From: Arthrobacter woluwensis
Lineage (GTDB): Bacteria; Actinomycetota; Actinomycetes; Actinomycetales; Micrococcaceae
Direction of reading: 5' to 3'
Assembly: GCF_900105345.1 (NCBI RefSeq)
Contig: NZ_FNSN01000003.1
Location: 744,001 to 808,000 of the forward strand
DNA: 64,000 nt
Part shown: piece after piece, positions 2,006-50,909 of the stretch
Layout of the letters: the number at the start of each line of letters is the position of its first letter
How positions within the stretch are numbered: the stretch's first letter is position 1
Program-made: the position numbers and the translations under genes
Notes under the pieces: model-generated
Seen by the model: only the letters and a program-made list of their open reading frames with translations
Database searches by the model: none
What the model was told of the DNA's origin: nothing

Positions 2006-3892
2006 TCAGGCGGACGGCCGGTCCTGACGGGCGTCGTACTGGACGGCGTGGCGGACCGGGGCGTTCGCGGCGCCGTAACCGTCGTAGCCGCCGCGGCGCT
2101 CCACCATCTCGAAGAAGACGCTGCCCACCGTGGCGGTGTAGAAGTGCAGGAACTCGCCGTCGCCGTCGCGGTCGTAGAGGAGATCGAGGTCCCGCAGCGT
2201 GGCCAGGAACTCCGGATCGAGCTGGAACCGGGCGTCCAGGTCCTCGTAATAGTTGGCGGGGATGGGCAGGAACTCCAGCCCCCGGTCCTTCGCCGCACGC
2301 GCCGTGGCCACGAGGTCGTCGACGGCGAAGGCGATGTGCTCCTGGTAGGTCTTGCGGCCCGGATCCCCGCCGGAATCGAGGCCCTGCTGGACCACGGGGG
2401 CGAGATTGAGCACCAGGCGCACGGCACGGTCCGAGGTCTGCATGACCTGCGAACGGACCAGGCCGGTGGGGCTGGGCACCTCGGCGAACGGCGCGGGCTC
2501 CAGCGCCAGGGCGCTCGTGTAGAAGAGGACGGCCTCGTCGAAGTGCTGCCACGGCTGGGCCAGGTTCACGTGGTCGATCGTCGCGGCGCCGCCCACCTTC
2601 CCGGGGCCGTCGCCGTCTCCGAATTCGTGAGTCCACACGGCGACTCCTCCCGGGCGGCTCTGGCACAGGAAGATCTCCGTCGAATCCGGGGCTGAGACCC
2701 CCTGGAAGACCTCCTCGTCGGCCTGGACCGTGCGGGCGACCGCGGGCGCCTTCAGCTGCTGGGCTCGCGCGGAGGCGAGCAGCGGTGACTCGACGTCGAA
2801 ACCGAGCGCGGCGATCGCGGGTTCGGCCTGGGAGGGCGCCTGCTCGTTGATGATGACGCGCGCCTGGCCCAGGGTCCAGAGCTGGACGTCCTTGGTGCGG
2901 TGCCGTCCCGCGAAGCTGAAGCCGAGCTGCCCGAGCAGCGTCTCCAGTCCGGCGGTGTCCTCGGCCTTCACCTCGGCGAAGTCGAAGCCGGCGGGCTCCG
3001 GCACCCGGGGCAGGGTGGCCAGTTCCATCGGGTGACGACGGCGGTGCGCAGCCTCCGTGCCCCCGTCCTGCTCGGTGAGCCAGCGTGCGCTCTGCTCCTC
3101 CAGCCAGATGAGCGACCGCATGGCGTCCACCGCGGTGCGGTCCACATCGGCCTGCCGGAAGACGTCGTTGAAGACCTCGAGGGAGACGGGACCGGAGTAG
3201 CCCGCCCGGATCACGTGGCCCATGAACTTCGCCAGGTCGAACTGCCCCTCGCCCGGGAACACCCGGTGGTGGCGGCTCCAGGACAGGACGTCCATGGAGA
3301 GGCGCGGGGCGTCGGCCACCTGGACGAAGAAGATCTTCTCCGGGTCGAAGGCCTCGATGGGCGCGGTGTCCCAGTCCCGGGAGAGGATGTGGAAGGAGTC
3401 CAGGCAGGTGCCGAGGTTCGGGTGGTCCACCATCTCGACGAGCCGGTGGGCGTGTTCGTAGTCGTTGACGTACTTGCCCCACGCCAGCGCCTCGTAGGCC
3501 ACCTTCACGCCGTGCTCACCGGCGAGTTCCGCGAGGCGGGCGAGCTGCTCGGCGCGCAGGCCGTCGTCGTCGATCTGTGCGGTGGCGACGTTGCTGCACA
3601 CGAGGATCGTGTCCATGCCGAGGCGGGACATGAGGCGGAACTTGGCATCGGCGCGGCGGAGGTTCTCCCGCAGGAGGTCCTCGGGGACGCTGTCGAAGTC
3701 ACGGAAAGGCTGGTAGAGATCGAGGCCGAGGCCGAGGTCGGCGGCCAGGGAGCGGACGTCCTCGGGACTGAGCGGGGAGGTGATCAGGTCGGGCTCGAAG
3801 ATCTCGATCCCGTCGAAGCCGGCGATGGCGCAGGCCTGCATCTTCTCGCGCAGCGTGCCGGACAGGCAGACGGTGGCGACTCCCGTGCGCAT
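2006..3892 (-). CDS. qsuB: 3-dehydroshikimate dehydratase fused to HPPD-like VOC domain
   Basis: Converts 3-dehydroshikimate to protocatechuate, feeding the beta-ketoadipate pathway. The 628 residues match bifunctional QsuB/QuiC1. Residues 1 to about 275 form an AP-endonuclease-like TIM barrel with conserved acidic and His positions in YEALAWGKY, CLDSFH and SLEVFND. Residues about 300-625 resemble 4-hydroxyphenylpyruvate dioxygenase and keep its iron-ligand pattern (His in IDHVNLA, His in EHIAFAV, Glu in FFEMVERRGG). I chose the ATG at 3892 because it overlaps the upstream stop as TGATG and the protein then begins MRTGVATVCLSG, the usual start of the barrel. The frame stays open upstream only because of overlap with the previous gene. 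In known family members the C-terminal half has no proven reaction. Confidence 0.9.
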   Translation of the reverse strand: MRTGVATVCLSGTLREKMQACAIAGFDGIEIFEPDLITSPLSPEDVRSLAADLGLGLDLYQPFRDFDSVPEDLLRENLRRADAKFRLMSRLGMDTILVCSNVATAQIDDDGLRAEQLARLAELAGEHGVKVAYEALAWGKYVNDYEHAHRLVEMVDHPNLGTCLDSFHILSRDWDTAPIEAFDPEKIFFVQVADAPRLSMDVLSWSRHHRVFPGEGQFDLAKFMGHVIRAGYSGPVSLEVFNDVFRQADVDRTAVDAMRSLIWLEEQSARWLTEQDGGTEAAHRRRHPMELATLPRVPEPAGFDFAEVKAEDTAGLETLLGQLGFSFAGRHRTKDVQLWTLGQARVIINEQAPSQAEPAIAALGFDVESPLLASARAQQLKAPAVARTVQADEEVFQGVSAPDSTEIFLCQSRPGGVAVWTHEFGDGDGPGKVGGAATIDHVNLAQPWQHFDEAVLFYTSALALEPAPFAEVPSPTGLVRSQVMQTSDRAVRLVLNLAPVVQQGLDSGGDPGRKTYQEHIAFAVDDLVATARAAKDRGLEFLPIPANYYEDLDARFQLDPEFLATLRDLDLLYDRDGDGEFLHFYTATVGSVFFEMVERRGGYDGYGAANAPVRHAVQYDARQDRPSA

Positions 3893-4788
3893 CAGCGGCC
3901 CCCTTCCGTAGCGGTGGCGTCCTCCGCCGCGATCAGCTCCAGGAAGTGTTCGCGCATGCGGCCGGCGTCGGCGTCGTGGCCGGTGAAGAGCCGGAAGGCG
4001 TCGGCGGCCTGCCCCACCGCCATGCGGCCCCCGTCCAGGACGCGGCAGCCGATGGCCCGGGCCCGTCGCACGAGTTCGGTCTCGAGTGGACGGTAGACGA
4101 TGTCCGCCACCCAGTGCCGGGGTTCCAGCAGCGCCGGATCCAACGGCAGGCCGGGGTGCGCGGCCATGCCGATCGGCGTGCAGTGCACCAGACCGTCGGC
4201 GAGCGGCAGGAGCGCCGGCAGCTCGTCCGGGGTGTGCGCGGTGACGACCGCGCCGGGGAACAGCGCCCGCAGGCTCTCGGCGCGCTCGGCGCACCGGACC
4301 GGGTCCGTGTCCACCAGATCCAGCACCCCGACGCCGGCGGTCAGGAGCGCATAGGCGACGGCGGACCCGGCGCCTCCCGCACCCAGCTGCACCACCCGCT
4401 CGAGCGAGGCTCCCGGCAGGCCGTCGGCGAGGGCGCGGGCGAAGCCGGAGAAATCGGTGTTGTGGCCGATGAACCGTCCGTCCTCGATCACGACCGTGTT
4501 CACCGCGGCGAGCCGCCGGGCGTCCTCGGACACCTCGTCGAGATGCGCCATCACGAGCTGCTTGCAGGGGTGCGTGATGTTCAGACCGTTGAAGCCGAGA
4601 TCGGCGGCCCACCGCAGCAGCTCGCCGATCGAGCCGGCGGGGAGGCCGGTCTCGAGCAGATCGAGGGGTCGGTACAGGTACCGGAGGCCCTGCCGGTCGC
4701 CCTCCCGCTCATGCATCGGCGGGGTGAGGGACGGCAGGACGCCCTCGCCCACCAGGCCCACCAGGAATGATCCTGCTCGAGTGCTCAT
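3892..4788 (-). CDS. aroE: Shikimate/quinate dehydrogenase
   Basis: Oxidoreductase interconverting shikimate and 3-dehydroshikimate; here probably catabolic. The 298-residue protein has an N-terminal substrate domain with the catalytic Lys in NITHPCKQLV and the Asp in NTDFSGF, then a Rossmann domain with GAGGAGSAV. An Asp at the end of the second Rossmann strand (LVDTDPVR) instead of the NRT-type motif suggests NAD+ use, as in QsuD, rather than NADP+. The ATG at 4788 is preceded by AAAGGAGCG; an upstream in-frame extension to 4848 lacks a ribosome site. Its stop overlaps the dehydratase start by one base (TGATG), indicating translational coupling. No dehydroquinate dehydratase is present, so shikimate is a more likely substrate than quinate. 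Confidence 0.88.
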   Translation of the reverse strand: MSTRAGSFLVGLVGEGVLPSLTPPMHEREGDRQGLRYLYRPLDLLETGLPAGSIGELLRWAADLGFNGLNITHPCKQLVMAHLDEVSEDARRLAAVNTVVIEDGRFIGHNTDFSGFARALADGLPGASLERVVQLGAGGAGSAVAYALLTAGVGVLDLVDTDPVRCAERAESLRALFPGAVVTAHTPDELPALLPLADGLVHCTPIGMAAHPGLPLDPALLEPRHWVADIVYRPLETELVRRARAIGCRVLDGGRMAVGQAADAFRLFTGHDADAGRMREHFLELIAAEDATATEGGR

Positions 4789-5953: not shown

Positions 5954-7279
5954 ATGAACCAGACCCTTCCGCCCGCAGCGCCGGGCGCCGTCCCCTCCGG
6001 AGCGGCCGCGGGCCACTCCGGCACTCCCCGGAAGGCCGCCCTGGCCAGCTTCCTCGGCAGCGCGGTGGAGTATTACGACTTCTTCATCTTCGGTTCCGCC
6101 GCGGCGCTGATCTTCCCCAAGGTGTTCTTCCCCAGCGCCGATGCGAACGCCACCATCATGTCCTTCGCGACGTTCGGCTTCGCCTACATCGCCCGGCCCG
6201 TGGGCGCGGTCTTCCTGGGCCACTTCGGCGACCGACTCGGACGACAGAGGGTGCTCATGTTCACCCTGGTCCTGATGGGCGCCTCGACCTTCGTCATCGG
6301 CTGCCTCCCGGACTTCAAGACCGTGGGCTGGTGGGCACCCGCCCTCCTGGTGCTCGCGCGTCTCTGCCAGGGCCTTTCCGCGGCAGGTGAACAGGCGGGC
6401 GCTTCCTCGATGACGCTGGAGCACGCCCCCGACGACCGCCGGGCCTTCTTCACCTCGTGGACCCTCACCGGGACGCAGGGCGGGCAGATCCTCGCCGCCC
6501 TGGCCTTCATCCCCGTCGTCGCCCTGCCGGACGACCTGAAGTACGGCATCGGCTGGCGCATCCCGTTCTGGCTGAGCGCCGCCGTCGTCGTGGTCGCGTT
6601 CTTCATCCGCCGCAGCCTGCACGAGCCCACCACCTTCGCCGAGGCCAAGAAAGCGCGGCTGCCCTTCGTCGAGCTGATGAAGTATCACTGGCGAGACGTG
6701 GTCCGCGTGATCTGCTGCGCCTTCATCGCCGCGATCAGCACCGTCTTCGGCACCCTCGCCATCAGCTACGGCAAGCAGGTCGCCCATGTGGACAGCACCG
6801 TGACGCTGTGGCTCGTGGTGGTGGCGAACGTGGTGGCCCTCGGCACCCAGCCGTTCTTCGGCACGCTGGCAGACCGCTTCGGCCGCAAGCCGCTGTTCGT
6901 CTACGGCGCCCTGTCCAGCGCGGTCATGACGCCGCTGTTCTTCCTGAGCCTGCAGTCCGGTTCGGTCCCGCTGATGTTCGTGGCCGCCATCGTGTACTTC
7001 TCCTGCGGCTATGCGGCGGCGAACGCGGTCTGGCCGTCCTTCTACGGCGAGATGTTCAGCACCCAGGTCCGCTTCTCGGGTCTGGCCGTGGGAACCCAGC
7101 TCGGATTCCTCATGGCCGGCTTCGCTCCCACGATCGTCTCGGCGATCGGCGGCACCGGCCCCGGCGGCTGGGTCCAGACGTCGATCTTCGCCGCGGTCAT
7201 CTGCGTGATCGCCGCGGTGTCGGCGCTGACAGCCCGCGAGACGGCCAAGGTCCCCACCGCCCAGCTCGGCCTGAAGTAG
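5954..7279 (+). CDS. MHS-family MFS transporter (shikimate/alpha-ketoglutarate permease type)
   Basis: A 441-residue, 12-helix metabolite:H+ symporter of the ShiA/ProP/KgtP group. Evidence includes SAVEYYDFFIFG in the first helix, GHFGDRLGRQR in the 2-3 loop, the long loop QGLSAAGEQAGA, and ADRFGRKP in the second half. The start at 5954 follows GAAGGAAT; the open frame extends upstream to 5876 without a ribosome site. It is divergent from an IclR gene and near the shikimate dehydrogenase and dehydroshikimate dehydratase, so shikimate is the best substrate guess. Other dicarboxylates or betaine-like compounds cannot be excluded. Confidence 0.87.
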   Translation: MNQTLPPAAPGAVPSGAAAGHSGTPRKAALASFLGSAVEYYDFFIFGSAAALIFPKVFFPSADANATIMSFATFGFAYIARPVGAVFLGHFGDRLGRQRVLMFTLVLMGASTFVIGCLPDFKTVGWWAPALLVLARLCQGLSAAGEQAGASSMTLEHAPDDRRAFFTSWTLTGTQGGQILAALAFIPVVALPDDLKYGIGWRIPFWLSAAVVVVAFFIRRSLHEPTTFAEAKKARLPFVELMKYHWRDVVRVICCAFIAAISTVFGTLAISYGKQVAHVDSTVTLWLVVVANVVALGTQPFFGTLADRFGRKPLFVYGALSSAVMTPLFFLSLQSGSVPLMFVAAIVYFSCGYAAANAVWPSFYGEMFSTQVRFSGLAVGTQLGFLMAGFAPTIVSAIGGTGPGGWVQTSIFAAVICVIAAVSALTARETAKVPTAQLGLK

Positions 7280-46479: not shown

Positions 46480-47028
46480 TCAGCGCGCGACGACGGCCAG
46501 AGGTCGCTGCGGCAAGGCGCAGCTGGCGAGGGGAGCGCCGACGCTTGCGTCGCCGTAGAACGCGGCGTCAGCCATACCGTCGTGGCCCTGGGTCGATCCC
46601 GCGTGGCGCGGAGTGTCGAAGCAGGTGTCGATGCCGTACGGGGTGGCGGCGACGGTGTAGTCGCCGGGCGGTAGATTCCCGGGCACGTTCAGGGTGGTGC
46701 GGAAGCCGCCGTCGTCGGTCATCGGAATGAGCAGCCGGACGACGCTCGCGGACGTCCGGTCCATCAGCTGGACCTCCGCCTGGGCGTTCGCGCCGTAGCG
46801 CGGATGGCATTCGGCGTCGGGCGCCTCCACGGTGACGGTGTCCCCGGGGTGAGCCGTCGGGGCGCTGAGGTGAAAGGGCGGGGGCGAGCACCGGGTGGAC
46901 GGCGGGAACAGGTGGCCGTGGAGAGCCATCATCCCGAAGACGCCCGCCAGGAACAGGAGCCCGAGGCAGAGGAGCCCGACGTTGAACAGGCGCCAGAGGC
47001 GCGTGGCAGGATCGCTGCGTGTGCTCAT
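46480..47028 (-). CDS. Membrane-anchored extracytoplasmic Ig-like protein, unknown function
   Basis: A 182-residue protein with one N-terminal membrane helix (about 15-38) and an external domain. PPPFHLSAPTAHPGDTVTVEAPDAEC, RTTLNVPGNLPPGDYTVAATPYGID and four Cys suggest a disulfide-bonded Ig-like or invasin-type fold. Unknown function. The ATG follows CAGAAT (47040-47035) by six bases. It is a lone gene. Confidence 0.72.
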   Translation of the reverse strand: MSTRSDPATRLWRLFNVGLLCLGLLFLAGVFGMMALHGHLFPPSTRCSPPPFHLSAPTAHPGDTVTVEAPDAECHPRYGANAQAEVQLMDRTSASVVRLLIPMTDDGGFRTTLNVPGNLPPGDYTVAATPYGIDTCFDTPRHAGSTQGHDGMADAAFYGDASVGAPLASCALPQRPLAVVAR

Positions 47029-47132
47029 GACCTCATTCTGGGTGACAGCGTGTCATGCGACGGTGACGATCCCATCACGATCGTCGGGGAAAGCGGGGAC
47101 GCCCGACGCCCGGACTCAACACGCCGCCGCGT

Positions 47133-48035
47133 TCACGCCACCAGGTTCAACGGGGCGGGGGCCAGTCCCACCAGGACCTCCTGGCCCCACGTCAGGGTCA
47201 GCCGGTCGTCCTCCATGCCGTCGCCGAACACCACGAGCTGCTCTGAGGACACCGTGACACTGAGGGCCTCGCCGGGCTGGAGCAGCCCCTCGGTCAGCGT
47301 CGCCCCGGTCGCCGGGGACGGCCAGGCCTCGCGGACGAACCACGCGAGCTGCGGATCGGTCGGCGCGGGCAGAGCCCGTCCTCCCCGCTCGCCGGCGATC
47401 GACGCGCACCAGCCCGTGGATCCGGTTCCCGTGGAGACGATGAGCCCGGAAGAGGACTGCCGTTCCCGTCGGCCGTCCGGGGTGCGCAGTTCGTAACGCG
47501 CGGACTGATGCGAGGCGTGTCCCAGGAACACCTCGTTGAGGGCGGAGAGCTCCTGACCGTCGTCCGTGCGAGCGGTCACCATCGAGAGCCGCTCCTGCGG
47601 CAGACCCCAGGCGCCCGGCGTTCCGGCAGACGCCTGGGCCAGCAGCGCCGCTGCCCGCCGCGGGCTGTGGCGGACGAGCACTCCCGGGTTGCGGCGGGGC
47701 TCCGCGTTGACGCCGATCACGGGCTGGCCCGCGAGGTACTTCGCCGTGTTCGCCACCAGGCCGTCCTGCCCGACGACCACCACGACGTCGTCGGGCGCCA
47801 TGAGGAAGCGGCTGAGGTCCGCGCGTTCCACTTCGCCCGTCCGCCAGCCGGCGGGAACCGCCTGGCGGAGCGCGGCGCGGGCCTCGGTGAGGGTGTCGTG
47901 CGCCGCCTGCACCTCCGCCAGGTCGCGGTCGCGGACCTTGAGGAAGAACTCCACCTGGCCGCGGGTCCCGTGCCGGTCCAGGAGTTCGTCCAGCTCGGTC
48001 CGGCGGTGGACCAGGACCATCCGGGGATTGGCCAT
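47133..48035 (-). CDS. NAD kinase-like protein in the SPFH operon
   Basis: A 300-residue member of the NAD kinase/diacylglycerol kinase superfamily. VVVVVGQDGLVANTAKYL replaces the usual GGDG with GQDG, the acidic NE motif is present in ALNEVFLGH, and VSTGTGSTGWCAS matches the third NAD kinase motif. The altered first motif may change or remove activity. It starts 12 bp after the SPFH gene with GAGAGGA and is clearly co-transcribed with it. The pair is divergent from a Nudix/NrtR regulator, which suggests a link to NAD or ADP-ribose metabolism. Confidence 0.82.
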   Translation of the reverse strand: MANPRMVLVHRRTELDELLDRHGTRGQVEFFLKVRDRDLAEVQAAHDTLTEARAALRQAVPAGWRTGEVERADLSRFLMAPDDVVVVVGQDGLVANTAKYLAGQPVIGVNAEPRRNPGVLVRHSPRRAAALLAQASAGTPGAWGLPQERLSMVTARTDDGQELSALNEVFLGHASHQSARYELRTPDGRRERQSSSGLIVSTGTGSTGWCASIAGERGGRALPAPTDPQLAWFVREAWPSPATGATLTEGLLQPGEALSVTVSSEQLVVFGDGMEDDRLTLTWGQEVLVGLAPAPLNLVA

Positions 48036-48047
48036 GATCAGTCCTCT

Positions 48048-49046
48048 CTACTTCTTCGCCGCGGTCAGTGCGGTCAGTGCGGTTCCGAGCATGTCCGGCG
48101 TGATGGTCAGGTTCTGGATGCCGGGCAGGTTCGCCGCGGCCTCCTTCAGGGCCAGTGCCAGCAGGATGCCCTGGTCGAGATCGCGGTAGGTGTCCATGGC
48201 CGCCTTCTCACGAGCCGCCTCGGCTTCACCCACCAGCTTGATCCTGCCAGCTTCGGCCTCCGCCGCGATGGCGCCGCGCTCGGCCGCGGCCTGCGCCTCG
48301 ATGCCGGCGGCCGCCGCACGCTCCTCCGCCTCACGGCGGGCGTTGGCGCCCTCCTGGGCCACCAGGTTCTCGCGGCGTGCTGCGAGTTCGATCTGATTGG
48401 CCAGTTCGTTCTCGGCGATGGCACGTTCGCGTTCGACGGCGAGTGCCCGCCGTTCGAAGGTGGCACGGTCCGCCTCGGCCTGGAGCTGTTCCCGGACCGG
48501 AGTCTGCAGCGCACGCTCCACCTCGGCCTCGGGGCGGATGGCGAGGACGTGCACGCCGAGCACCGCGATCCCGGTGTCCTGGAGGCGGGCGTCCCGGGTC
48601 AGGGTCCCGAACAGGACGTCCCGCAGCGGGGCGGCCCCGTTGCTCAGGGCGTCGGCCAGGGTGAAGCGGGCGACATGGTCGTTCGCGGCCGCCTGGCAGA
48701 GCTGGCCGATGATCGTCTCGACCTGCTGGGCGCCGGTGGCCGGCGCCTCGTCCCTCTTCTTGAGGCCGAAATCCAGGCGGGCGCTCGCGAGCACCGGGTC
48801 GGTGAAGCGGTAGGTGATGTTCGCCTGGACGCTGACGTCCTGGTGGTCCTGGGTGAGGGCGTGGAAGAGGGTCGGCAGTTCGCGGTCCTCCACGGGGATC
48901 TCGCTCAGCACGGAGATCCCCGGGCGGTACCAGAACGCCTGGCCCACGCCCTGGTGACGGACTTGTCCGCCCTGGACGTGGACCACGTAGCCGGTGGGGC
49001 CGCCGAGGAAGTGGTTGATCCAGGGGTAGCTCTTGATGGTGTTCAT
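48048..49046 (-). CDS. SPFH/Band 7 domain protein
   Basis: A 332-residue prohibitin-type protein. Residues about 10-190 form the SPFH domain (GYVVHVQGGQVRHQGVGQAFWYRPG, DVSVQANITYRFTDPVLA, GVHVLAIRPEAEVERAL). Residues about 190-285 are a long Ala/Glu coiled coil (ERRALAVERERAIAENELANQIEL). I see no N-terminal membrane helix, unlike most family members, so it may be a soluble ring former or peripheral protein. AAGGAGAG precedes the start. A perfect 21-bp palindrome lies 20 bp upstream of the ATG. Confidence 0.88.
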   Translation of the reverse strand: MNTIKSYPWINHFLGGPTGYVVHVQGGQVRHQGVGQAFWYRPGISVLSEIPVEDRELPTLFHALTQDHQDVSVQANITYRFTDPVLASARLDFGLKKRDEAPATGAQQVETIIGQLCQAAANDHVARFTLADALSNGAAPLRDVLFGTLTRDARLQDTGIAVLGVHVLAIRPEAEVERALQTPVREQLQAEADRATFERRALAVERERAIAENELANQIELAARRENLVAQEGANARREAEERAAAAGIEAQAAAERGAIAAEAEAGRIKLVGEAEAAREKAAMDTYRDLDQGILLALALKEAAANLPGIQNLTITPDMLGTALTALTAAKK

Positions 49047-49065
49047 AATGTCTCTCCTTCGTTCT

Positions 49066-49131
49066 TTATCGTCAACTTGACGATAATTGAACTCTAGGGG
49101 GTCTCCGGCATTAATGTCAAGGTGACGATAA
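49066..49131. promoter_or_regulatory. Two 21-bp palindromic operators between the SPFH and Nudix regulator genes
   Basis: Operator 1 (49066-49086) is TTATCGTCAA, one base C, then TTGACGATAA: a perfect 21-bp palindrome. Operator 2 (49111-49131) is TTAATGTCAA, G, GTGACGATAA, the same element with a few changes, 45 bp away. Operator 1 overlaps the probable SPFH promoter, operator 2 the -35 area of the regulator, whose -10 may be TAGGCT (49136-49141). The form fits an NrtR-type dimer site. Confidence 0.7.
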
Positions 49132-49148
49132 ATGCTAGGCTGAGGACC

Positions 49149-49883
49149 ATGACGAACCGGAAGTCCGATGCTCTCGCTGCTTTCCACGCTTTCCCGGTCA
49201 CGGTGGACATCGTCGCTCTCACCGTGCGCGACGCCGCGCTGCACGTGCTGCTCGTGCGCCGCCTGCTCGAGCCGTTCAAGGACCGCCTGGCGCTGCCGGG
49301 CGGCTTCGTCCTGCCGGGGGAGGCGCTCGCCGAGGCCGCGCGGCGGGAGCTCGCCGAGGAGACCGGCGTCGAACGCCTGCCCGGGCACCTTGAGCAGCTG
49401 GCGAGTTACGGCCCCGCCGGACGCGATCCGCGAGGCGACGTCCTGACGGTCGCCCACCTGGTGCTCGCACCGGACTTCCCGGTGGTCGCGGGCGGTGGCG
49501 ACGCGAGCGAAGCGCTCTGGGTCCCGGTGGACCGGGTGCTGGGCGACGACGGCGCCCTGGCTTTCGACCATGCGCGGATCCTGGGCGACGGCGTGGAGCG
49601 GGCGCGTGCCAAGCTGGAGTACTCGCCACTGGGCGCGGCGTTCTGCGGCGACGAGTTCACCATCGCCCAGTTGCGGGGCGTCTATGAGGCGGTCTGGGGT
49701 GTCCGCCTCGATCCGCGGAACTTCCACCGCAAGGCCACGGGCGCCGCGGGATTCCTCGAGGAGACGGGCGAGGTGTCCTCGGGCGAGGCAGGCCGGCCCG
49801 CCGCGCTGTTCCGTCTGGCGCCCGAGGCCCGCTCCGGGAACCGCGCGGTGCTGAACCCGCCGCTCATGAGGCCGGTGGCCTGA
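49149..49883 (+). CDS. NrtR-type Nudix transcriptional regulator
   Basis: A 244-residue protein combining a Nudix domain (about 15-150) with a C-terminal winged helix (about 160-235: FTIAQLRGVYEAVWGVRLDPRNFHRKATG and GRPAALFRL), the NrtR layout. Unlike many NrtR proteins, the Nudix box GFVLPGEALAEAARRELAEETGV is complete (G-x5-E-x7-REL-x-EE-x-G), so it may still hydrolyse an ADP-ribose-type substrate. ATG 49149 with GAGGA is preferred; a frame extension to 49122 lies in the operator. It is divergent from SPFH-NAD-kinase-like genes and is the likely binder of the two 21-bp palindromes. Confidence 0.87.
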   Translation: MTNRKSDALAAFHAFPVTVDIVALTVRDAALHVLLVRRLLEPFKDRLALPGGFVLPGEALAEAARRELAEETGVERLPGHLEQLASYGPAGRDPRGDVLTVAHLVLAPDFPVVAGGGDASEALWVPVDRVLGDDGALAFDHARILGDGVERARAKLEYSPLGAAFCGDEFTIAQLRGVYEAVWGVRLDPRNFHRKATGAAGFLEETGEVSSGEAGRPAALFRLAPEARSGNRAVLNPPLMRPVA

Positions 49884-49895
49884 ATGCGCGGGGTC

Positions 49896-50309
49896 TCAGC
49901 TCTCGACGATCCGCGCTTCGAGGATGTTCAGCACTGCGCCCCAATGCGCTAGCATCTCTTCGCGTTCTGCCGGGCCTGAAAGCCGTTCATGGTGGATGGC
50001 GATCGTGCTGCCCGTCTTCGCCGGGATGACCCTGAGCTGCACCGTCGAGTCCGTCTCAGCTCCGGCCGGCTGCCATGTCAGGCGCAGCATGGATCCCTCG
50101 GCGCGGCTTCTGAGCTCTCCGCGCGTACCCTCCGCGGTCACGTAAGCCCCGCCGATTGCGCGGATCGCTCCGGGGTCCAGGGTGCCCAGCCACGAGCTGA
50201 GTCCCGGCCCGGTGAGAAATTCCCAGGCCTGGTGTGGCGTCACCGGAACGGTCCTTCTGATGCCCATTTGCCAGCCCGCGTCTTGAGTCAGTCCGAGTGA
50301 TGTGTTCAT
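49896..50309 (-). CDS. SRPBCC (AHSA1-like) protein paired with a CGNR regulator
   Basis: A 137-residue START-like fold protein: MGIRRTVPVTPHQAWEFLTGPGLSSWLG at the start and HHERLSGPAEREEMLAHWGAVLNILEARI at the end are typical of AHSA1-type proteins. The start codon at 50309-50307 lies inside one arm of the palindrome shared with the divergent CGNR gene; there is no Shine-Dalgarno, so it should be leaderless. Its function probably concerns a small ligand sensed by the pair. Confidence 0.83.
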   Translation of the reverse strand: MNTSLGLTQDAGWQMGIRRTVPVTPHQAWEFLTGPGLSSWLGTLDPGAIRAIGGAYVTAEGTRGELRSRAEGSMLRLTWQPAGAETDSTVQLRVIPAKTGSTIAIHHERLSGPAEREEMLAHWGAVLNILEARIVES

Positions 50310-50334
50310 GTAACCAGTTATAGTGGTTACATGA
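50306..50334. promoter_or_regulatory. Palindrome holding the start codons of two divergent genes
   Basis: Arms TCATGTAACCA (50306-50316) and TGGTTACATGA (50324-50334) are perfect over 11 bp around GTTATAG. The left arm contains the ATG of the SRPBCC gene (minus strand), the right arm the ATG of the CGNR gene. TATAGT (50319-50324) is six bases before the plus-strand ATG, and TATAAC lies seven before the minus-strand one. Thus two overlapping leaderless promoters and one operator share 29 bp. Confidence 0.72.
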
Positions 50335-50909
50335 GTGCCGGTCAATGGATGATGTCCGCCGAGGGAGTGCGCTGGTTTTTCGATGCGGGATCGCTTGCCC
50401 TCGACTTCGGGTATACAGGCGATTTCGGCTACGGTGTCGCGGCCTGGGAACGCCTGCACAACCCGGGGGACTTGGACGGGTGGCTGGGGGAACACGGCGG
50501 CGTGGCGAGTGGCGGGCGGCTGCCGGCCACCGAACGCGACTTCGCGGAGGCCCTCCAGCTGCGCGCGGCGATCTGGGAACTTGCTCGAGCCGCGGCCGAC
50601 GGTGTCGGTGCGGATCCGTTGAGCATCGACGTTGTGAACCGGTTCGCGAGGGGGCTCTCCCCGGCCCCTCAGTTGCCTGGCGGGGCGGAGTCTGCTCCGG
50701 CCTCGACGGCCGCGATGCTGCTGGCCGCCGTCGCGCGAGACGCGGTGACGGTTTTCAGCTCGCCGGACCGAATCCGGCGGTGCGGCGCGGAAGACTGCGC
50801 TCTGATCTTCCACGACGGCAGCCGCACCCAAGCGCGCCGCTGGTGCTCCATGCAGCGCTGTGGCAATCGGCAGAAGGTCCGGATGCATCGCGCCCGGGCC
50901 TCGGAGTGA
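50331..50909 (+). CDS. CGNR zinc-finger regulator
   Basis: A 192-residue regulator with an N-terminal ABATE-type domain (about 5-135, FDAGSLALDFGYTGDFGY, LHNPGDLDGWL) and a C-terminal CGNR zinc finger (RRCGAEDCALIFHD ... RRWCSMQRCGNRQKVRMHRAR). It is divergent from the SRPBCC gene and begins within their shared palindrome, which it presumably binds. ArsR-SRPBCC pairs are common; a CGNR-SRPBCC pair is less so. Confidence 0.88.
   Translation: MSAGQWMMSAEGVRWFFDAGSLALDFGYTGDFGYGVAAWERLHNPGDLDGWLGEHGGVASGGRLPATERDFAEALQLRAAIWELARAAADGVGADPLSIDVVNRFARGLSPAPQLPGGAESAPASTAAMLLAAVARDAVTVFSSPDRIRRCGAEDCALIFHDGSRTQARRWCSMQRCGNRQKVRMHRARASE

Follow-up and report, generated by a model that had tools for sequence, protein, structure and literature searches.

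What does a regulator of the NrtR type control when the genes facing it encode an SPFH protein and a relative of the NAD kinases? This question is raised by a locus in a stretch of 64,000 nucleotides from Arthrobacter woluwensis (contig NZ_FNSN01000003.1, positions 744,001 to 808,000; genome size 3.86 Mb), hereafter called the window, whose own numbering is used throughout. We propose, with moderate confidence, that the three genes form an autoregulated module in which a signal of nicotinamide adenine dinucleotide (NAD) turnover would derepress an NAD(H)-kinase-like enzyme organised by the SPFH protein. The predicted architecture of its operators and their tie to the NrtR-type regulator family are well supported by sequence comparison. 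The features of the locus are the following.

47133-48035, minus strand: protein of the NAD kinase fold, related to NADK2 and carrying a GQDG motif (300 amino acids)
48048-49046, minus strand: SPFH/Band 7 protein without an N-terminal membrane helix (332 amino acids)
49066-49086, no strand: operator 1, TTATCGTCAACTTGACGATAA, a perfect palindrome of 21 base pairs (bp) over the predicted SPFH transcription start
49091-49120, minus strand: predicted promoter of the SPFH and kinase genes, with -35 box TTGACA (49120-49115), an 18-base spacer and -10 box TAGAGT (49096-49091)
49111-49131, no strand: operator 2, covering the SPFH -35 box and differing from operator 1 at three positions
49149-49883, plus strand: NrtR-type regulator with a Nudix domain (complete Nudix box) and an NrtR winged helix (244 amino acids)

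Profile scores and the positions of the open reading frames agree fully with the gene order, coordinates and domains given in an earlier note on this DNA. Between the SPFH stop codon and the start of the kinase gene there are 12 bases. Between the SPFH gene and the regulator, operator 1 pairs at 10 of 10 positions around a one-base centre, and operator 2, 45 bp away, self-pairs at just 7 of 10; of the one perfect and one near-perfect copy described before, the first stands and the term for the second was generous. At up to three mismatches these two are the only such sites in the whole genome, and 100 shuffles of the window returned no match. A single promoter-like site, that of the SPFH gene, was found in 46900-50000 (shuffles: mean 0.0, standard deviation 0.2). 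Because its -35 box lies inside operator 2 and its -10 box immediately before operator 1, both palindromes embrace this one promoter, and the earlier claim that each sits over a promoter of its own did not hold. An arrangement of one palindrome per promoter is also ruled out by genomes in which the regulator gene lies elsewhere and the paired sites remain at the SPFH operon. Since operator 2 is situated 17 bases upstream of the regulator's start codon, autoregulation would be allowed.

The arrangement recurs in other genomes. Searched with the SPFH protein, the GTDB species genomes yielded 48 loci, picked via short conserved SPFH peptides and abundant in Arthrobacter relatives (41 actinobacterial loci, five from Myxococcota or deltaproteobacterial bins, one from Caulobacter and one from the Rhodobacteraceae). 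The kinase gene follows the SPFH gene in all 48, overlapping it by 4 bp in 16, and 41 loci have a Nudix regulator next to the pair (35 divergent, six co-directional); the co-occurrence on which the earlier note had staked its reading is thus found. Given this choice and the many Arthrobacter relatives, the 48 cases cannot be counted as independent, and searches starting from the kinase are less biased. The latter found the kinase in 12 of 296 genomes of Actinomycetota and in 12 of 398 genomes of Pseudomonadota, with an SPFH gene beside it in 12 of 12 places in each. A further 64 plasmid records match the kinase; the ten inspected all have an SPFH gene or pieces of one beside it, and seven have a Nudix gene, which in a Treponema plasmid record is located about 4 kb away. 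Named Streptomyces plasmids carry the SPFH-kinase pair, and Paenarthrobacter aurescens TC1, a soil strain used in the laboratory, has the module (L016). When the open reading frames of 34 representative loci, drawn from the 48, were clustered, only the trio recurred across clades; other gene clusters were mostly confined to one family or to related myxococcal loci, which rules out a wider operon. As judged from gene order, SPFH and kinase make up a conserved, closely packed operon, and the module is widespread in several phyla.

Some surroundings of the module are recorded here for their own sake. In the window, the gene past the regulator (50331-50909) encodes a putative stress regulator of the CGNR zinc-finger/ABATE type. 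In three records (L128, L132 and L133: an Acinetobacter lwoffii plasmid, plasmid pAST2 and a Proteus mirabilis record) the trio or pieces of it adjoin tet(H)/tet(J) tetracycline genes; the SPFH matches of L128 run across several separate frames, and that of L132 covers the later part only. Rhizobium etli plasmids (L126, 3134-5918) carry the trio of divergent NUDIX, band 7 and kinase genes, with the kinase annotated as PpnK-type or as a sugar kinase. In Tessaracoccus coleopterorum (L046, 4778-5956) the regulator matches in pieces in several frames and the kinase gene is split too. At another locus (L150, G193) the operon is located between a PNKP_ligase (polynucleotide kinase-ligase) gene and divergent genes for arginine deiminase and ornithine carbamoyltransferase, and at L162 (3-1455) a Sir2-family gene (PF02146, 6e-36) lies downstream of the module regulator in the same direction. 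An apparent SPFH-kinase fusion in a Micropruina bin (L038, 6001-7893), where one open frame spans both genes, is given no weight because one of four N bases (position 7002) falls at the junction.

The paired operators are a feature of the actinobacterial loci. When a match at 14 or more of 20 positions was required, one or more sites were present in 40 of the 48 upstream regions and two in 38; among 2400 dinucleotide shuffles, five had at least one site and none had two. All 38 two-site loci belong to the 41 actinobacterial ones. Their operators are spaced by 33-34 bp (16 loci), 44-45 bp (18 loci) or 36, 37, 39 or 42 bp (four loci), the two main values differing by about one helical turn. The left operator regularly supplies TTGAC, a possible -35 box; the -10 boxes at the other loci are weak evidence, since 3-4 of 6 positions match and the best of four spacers was taken. 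In Actinobacteria, the predicted promoter is located between or within two 21-bp operators about three or four helical turns apart. The seven non-actinobacterial loci lack this operator motif, and other, clade-specific palindromes precede the SPFH gene in a myxococcal group and in Rhizobium, Cupriavidus and Proteus.

Do these operators belong to the NrtR-type regulator, or could they serve another protein, with the NrtR-type gene as no more than a frequent neighbour? The tie is read from sequence comparison, and several NrtR-type paralogues can occur in one genome. In a tree, a clade of 45 members (support 100/98) unites the actinobacterial module regulators with the unlinked regulators described below and excludes the nadABC regulator. 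Because this clade also takes in a third set of paralogues and its inner order is ambiguous, the unlinked regulators are relatives of the module regulators but not proven strict orthologues. The strongest evidence for the tie comes from genomes in which regulator and operon lie apart. In a genus with large genomes (g8, by inference Streptomyces), the kinase is present in seven of eight listed genomes; in these seven the regulator is absent beside the operon and a close NrtR-type gene is located elsewhere, at a distance of some 90 to 150 kb when the two share a contig. A site with at most one mismatch stands before the SPFH operon and also before the unlinked regulator gene in 7 of 7, and the reversed pattern, searched as a control, gave no match in any of the 14 genomes searched.

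A scan that used the motif alone points the same way. The exact pattern matched in 17 of 394 genomes of the class, the window's included, and the reversed pattern in none. In 13 of the 16 other genomes the site lies between an SPFH gene and an NrtR-type regulator (12 of them also show the kinase, and in the 13th the contig ends); in two, of one family (L165 and L166), it precedes pnuC (PF04973, 5e-55 and 7.5e-55); and in one (G1061, L164) the match is at neither. PnuC is the transporter of nicotinamide mononucleotide (NMN), and thus belongs to the genes of NAD precursors. The 13 trio and two pnuC outcomes therefore tie the motif to NrtR-type regulators and NAD metabolism, even though the exact pattern is insensitive and misses the g8 genomes. 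Clades with other NrtR-type proteins have different operator-like palindromes too. Taken with the g8 sites, these results make it very unlikely that another regulator is served, and the association of the operators with the NrtR-type family even where its gene lies elsewhere, with binding as its predicted cause, is well supported.

The regulator itself scores well above the cut-offs for NUDIX (PF00293, 65.7 bits against 21.1) and NrtR_WHD (PF21906, 59.5 bits against 27), and its profile matches the solved structures 5bs6 (4.9e-51) and 3gz5 (8.9e-49). At 108.7 bits against a cut-off of 400 in the equivalog test, it belongs to the same family and falls outside that equivalog. Its Nudix box is complete, as had been seen before, and reads G-x5-E-x7-RELAEETGV; a strict pattern finds the box intact in 32 of the 35 divergent regulators of Actinobacteria and in none of the six co-directional ones of Myxococcota and Rhodobacteraceae. 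In the NrtR of Mycobacterium smegmatis (MsNrtR), whose known ligand is ADP-ribose, the box is degenerate and the protein does not hydrolyse ADP-ribose (PMC6800001). Set against that degenerate box, the intact actinobacterial boxes suggest that an enzyme removing its own inducer may have been kept. A second NrtR-type gene in the A. woluwensis genome stands directly before nadA, with nadC near, and the whole-genome scan (up to three mismatches) placed no copy of the trio palindrome there. The view that the module's targets are other than NAD synthesis is borne out, with a separate NrtR-type gene preceding nadA and nadC.

Which enzyme does the module produce? The profile of 29 kinase relatives finds human mitochondrial NADK2 first (2.3e-16), with the best bacterial NAD kinase at 2.5e-8, and the profile of a second subgroup (13 sequences from Rhizobium, Cupriavidus, Proteus, Treponema and others) gives NADK2 at 1.3e-16 and the next match at 0.0011. 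The structural model (predicted local distance difference test, pLDDT, 94.4) has the NAD kinase fold and superposes on NADK2 (7r4l) with Z 25.6 and a root-mean-square deviation (rmsd) of 3.1 over 279 aligned residues; the best bacterial NAD kinase reaches Z 22.6, with rmsd 3.4 over 246 residues. Profiles and model together indicate that, among solved relatives, the kinase is closest to human mitochondrial NADK2. The earlier identification as NAD kinase-like keeps its fold and catalytic residues, with the nearest solved relative now named. A canonical NAD kinase is encoded elsewhere in the genome.

The SPFH protein carries the domain of that name (PF01145, 57.5 bits against a cut-off of 23.6), and its model, with a pLDDT of 88.5 that is low towards the C-terminus, resembles HflK/C, stomatin, erlin and prohibitin in fold. 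In HflK/C and stomatin an N-terminal membrane anchor is typical, although not universal. Hydropathy analysis found no N-terminal hydrophobic stretch here, in keeping with the soluble appearance noted earlier; the genome's second Band_7 protein peaks at 3.6 (19-residue window) at residue 7. Among the relatives, 4 of 29 exceed 1.6 with the same window, at residues 107-121 and thus off the N-terminus, which is not the position of a typical anchor.

Family knowledge and these comparisons suggest the following course of events. An NrtR dimer would cover the -35 box and the start region and so repress the operon as well as the regulator gene. Binding of ADP-ribose, or of a similar nucleotide derived from NAD, to the Nudix domain would release the dimer; in Actinobacteria the complete Nudix box could hydrolyse the inducer too and reset the switch. 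Upon release, the SPFH protein and the kinase would be produced together. Least certain are the last two steps, in which a ring- or cage-like SPFH assembly may organise the NADK2-type enzyme, and the kinase may phosphorylate the 2'-hydroxyl of NAD(H), so that a signal of NAD breakdown would lead to a supply of NADP(H). A role in NAD(P) supply, which the earlier note had doubted, stays possible because the kinase is NADK2-related. A bolder version, which we consider unlikely, holds that the invariant change beside the catalytic aspartate has retuned the kinase to phosphorylate the regulator's inducer, ADP-ribose or another NAD-derived nucleotide, inside the SPFH cage; the module would then be a new bacterial compartment for ADP-ribose handling and NADP supply and a living counterpart of mitochondrial NADK2.

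Several observations weigh against the proposed derepressible NAD(H)-kinase module. We infer its ligand, the binding of the operators, the substrate of the enzyme and the assembly of SPFH protein and kinase. The regulator is adjacent in just 4 of the 12 unbiased Actinomycetota places (the window's included) and is seen in 7 of the 12 short Pseudomonadota stretches; these stretches carry about 1.5 kb of flank, and more distant regulators are therefore missed. Among solved structures the regulator is matched best by AraR, a family member that acts as an arabinose regulator. Sites with at most one mismatch also occur elsewhere (two in G023, four in G296 and one in G300), and may represent additional targets, belong to paralogous regulators or have arisen by chance. 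Those of G023 (439069 and 445508) are neighboured by two genes without a Pfam match, and further ones are found at C186 and C868 of G296 and at C1:130558 of G300. In G296, Catenulispora rubra, two sites 36 bp apart precede a PhoH gene (L148, 1985-2041, C50), with an adenylosuccinate synthetase-like gene near.

The remaining points concern the kinase, which misses the Pfam family NAD_kinase (PF01513, 16.9 bits against a cut-off of 25.5) and lies far under the cut-offs of the NCBIfam NAD kinase models; of its 29 relatives, one reaches E 0.001. Foldseek barely separates NADK2 (2.1e-18) from bacterial NAD kinases (4.5e-18). The GQDG motif noted before in place of GGDG, the single strong deviation of the kinase, is a trait of the whole family: across 81 distinct homologous places (duplicate rows L070, L071, L072 and L134 dropped), 78 have GQDG, three GPDG and none GGDG. 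Has the activity then been lost or changed, so that the protein is a sensor of pseudokinase type or phosphorylates a different acceptor, in a module that does not make NADP(H)? Besides the motif and the fact that no curated family claims the protein, the positions of Asp-189 and Tyr-202 of the Mycobacterium tuberculosis NAD kinase are occupied by Ser and an invariant Trp (aligned by eye). The same Ser and Trp stand at these positions in the NADK2 alignment (also read by eye), and human NADK2 is an active NAD kinase. The catalytic aspartate (D90) and the asparagine of the NE/D motif (N166) are invariant in 29 of 29 relatives, and the glutamate (E167) is kept in at least 90%. Loss or change of activity is hence possible, if doubtful, and a protein that membership criteria do not file as an NAD kinase may well, to judge by its residues, work like one.

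A different purpose would be conflict or phage defence, with the module answering NAD depletion or ADP-ribosylation. Predicted ADP-ribose conflict systems contain NrtR-type regulators (PMC9503650), the module occurs on plasmids (64 records), and in Catenulispora rubra an exact-pattern palindrome (L147, 2037-2057) precedes a SIR2-like gene (2134-3954, C49) of PADLOC family PDC-S65. This link is limited to one genome, and no effector-like gene recurs beside the trio in the 34 representative loci. PADLOC returned no family for the three window proteins at E 0.001, a tblastn search of the kinase against 50,697 phage records found no match, and PHROGs gave weak or general matches only. With the PADLOC and phage searches empty, a defence system is ruled out as the leading explanation, and we regard it as quite unlikely overall. 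The suggestion of a nucleotide-stress response rather than NAD synthesis is accordingly upheld in its second half, while a stress or phage response found no support in these searches. The derepressible NAD(H)-kinase module remains our preferred explanation.

How does this module compare with known systems? An open-access literature search found no paper on the regulator-SPFH-kinase set; the founding NrtR paper lies outside its scope and may hold an earlier mention. The trio is best regarded as an NrtR-type regulon with a new target pair. Like regulons such as that of MsNrtR (PMC6800001), it combines a Nudix and winged-helix repressor adjoining its target operon with a palindromic operator and, here by prediction, autoregulation. 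According to the same source, MsNrtR targets nadABC, whereas the trio's targets are an SPFH and an NADK2-type protein; the mycobacterial motif GTTTTCGA-N7-TCGAAAAC differs from the trio operator, of which there are two; and the Nudix box, degenerate in MsNrtR, is complete in the trio regulator. NrtR control would thereby be extended from NAD synthesis to an apparent partitioning of NAD(P). With ARG-centred systems that have Nudix transcription factors (PMC9503650), the trio shares a Nudix-type regulator and an occurrence in Actinobacteria and Proteobacteria, but differs in that no ADP-ribosylglycohydrolase, phosphatase or chaperone recurs beside it.

The SPFH protein resembles HflK/C, stomatin, prohibitin and erlin in its SPFH domain and long helix, and is set apart by the lack of an N-terminal membrane helix (by hydropathy), by having no FtsH or NfeD partner and by its pairing with a kinase, which would be the first concrete client for a bacterial SPFH protein without a transmembrane helix. 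With the bacterial NAD kinases (PpnK/NadK), the kinase shares the fold, the catalytic aspartate and the NE/D motif, and differs in scoring under the curated cut-offs and in having a separate housekeeping copy in the same genome. In animals, NADK2 is the main mitochondrial source of NADP, and to our knowledge the bacterial NAD kinases described so far match it poorly. Human NADK2 (7r4j, 7n29) is the best match of the kinase in both sequence and fold, and the N-terminal region and the LNE and SSG..TGTG..W motifs align, although identity is about 23%, the human enzyme has GGDG where the kinase has GQDG, and the kinase is bacterial and paired with an SPFH protein. A bacterial family nearer to NADK2, always adjacent to an SPFH gene and usually switched by an NrtR-type regulator, may thus offer a simple system in which to study NADK2-type enzymes.

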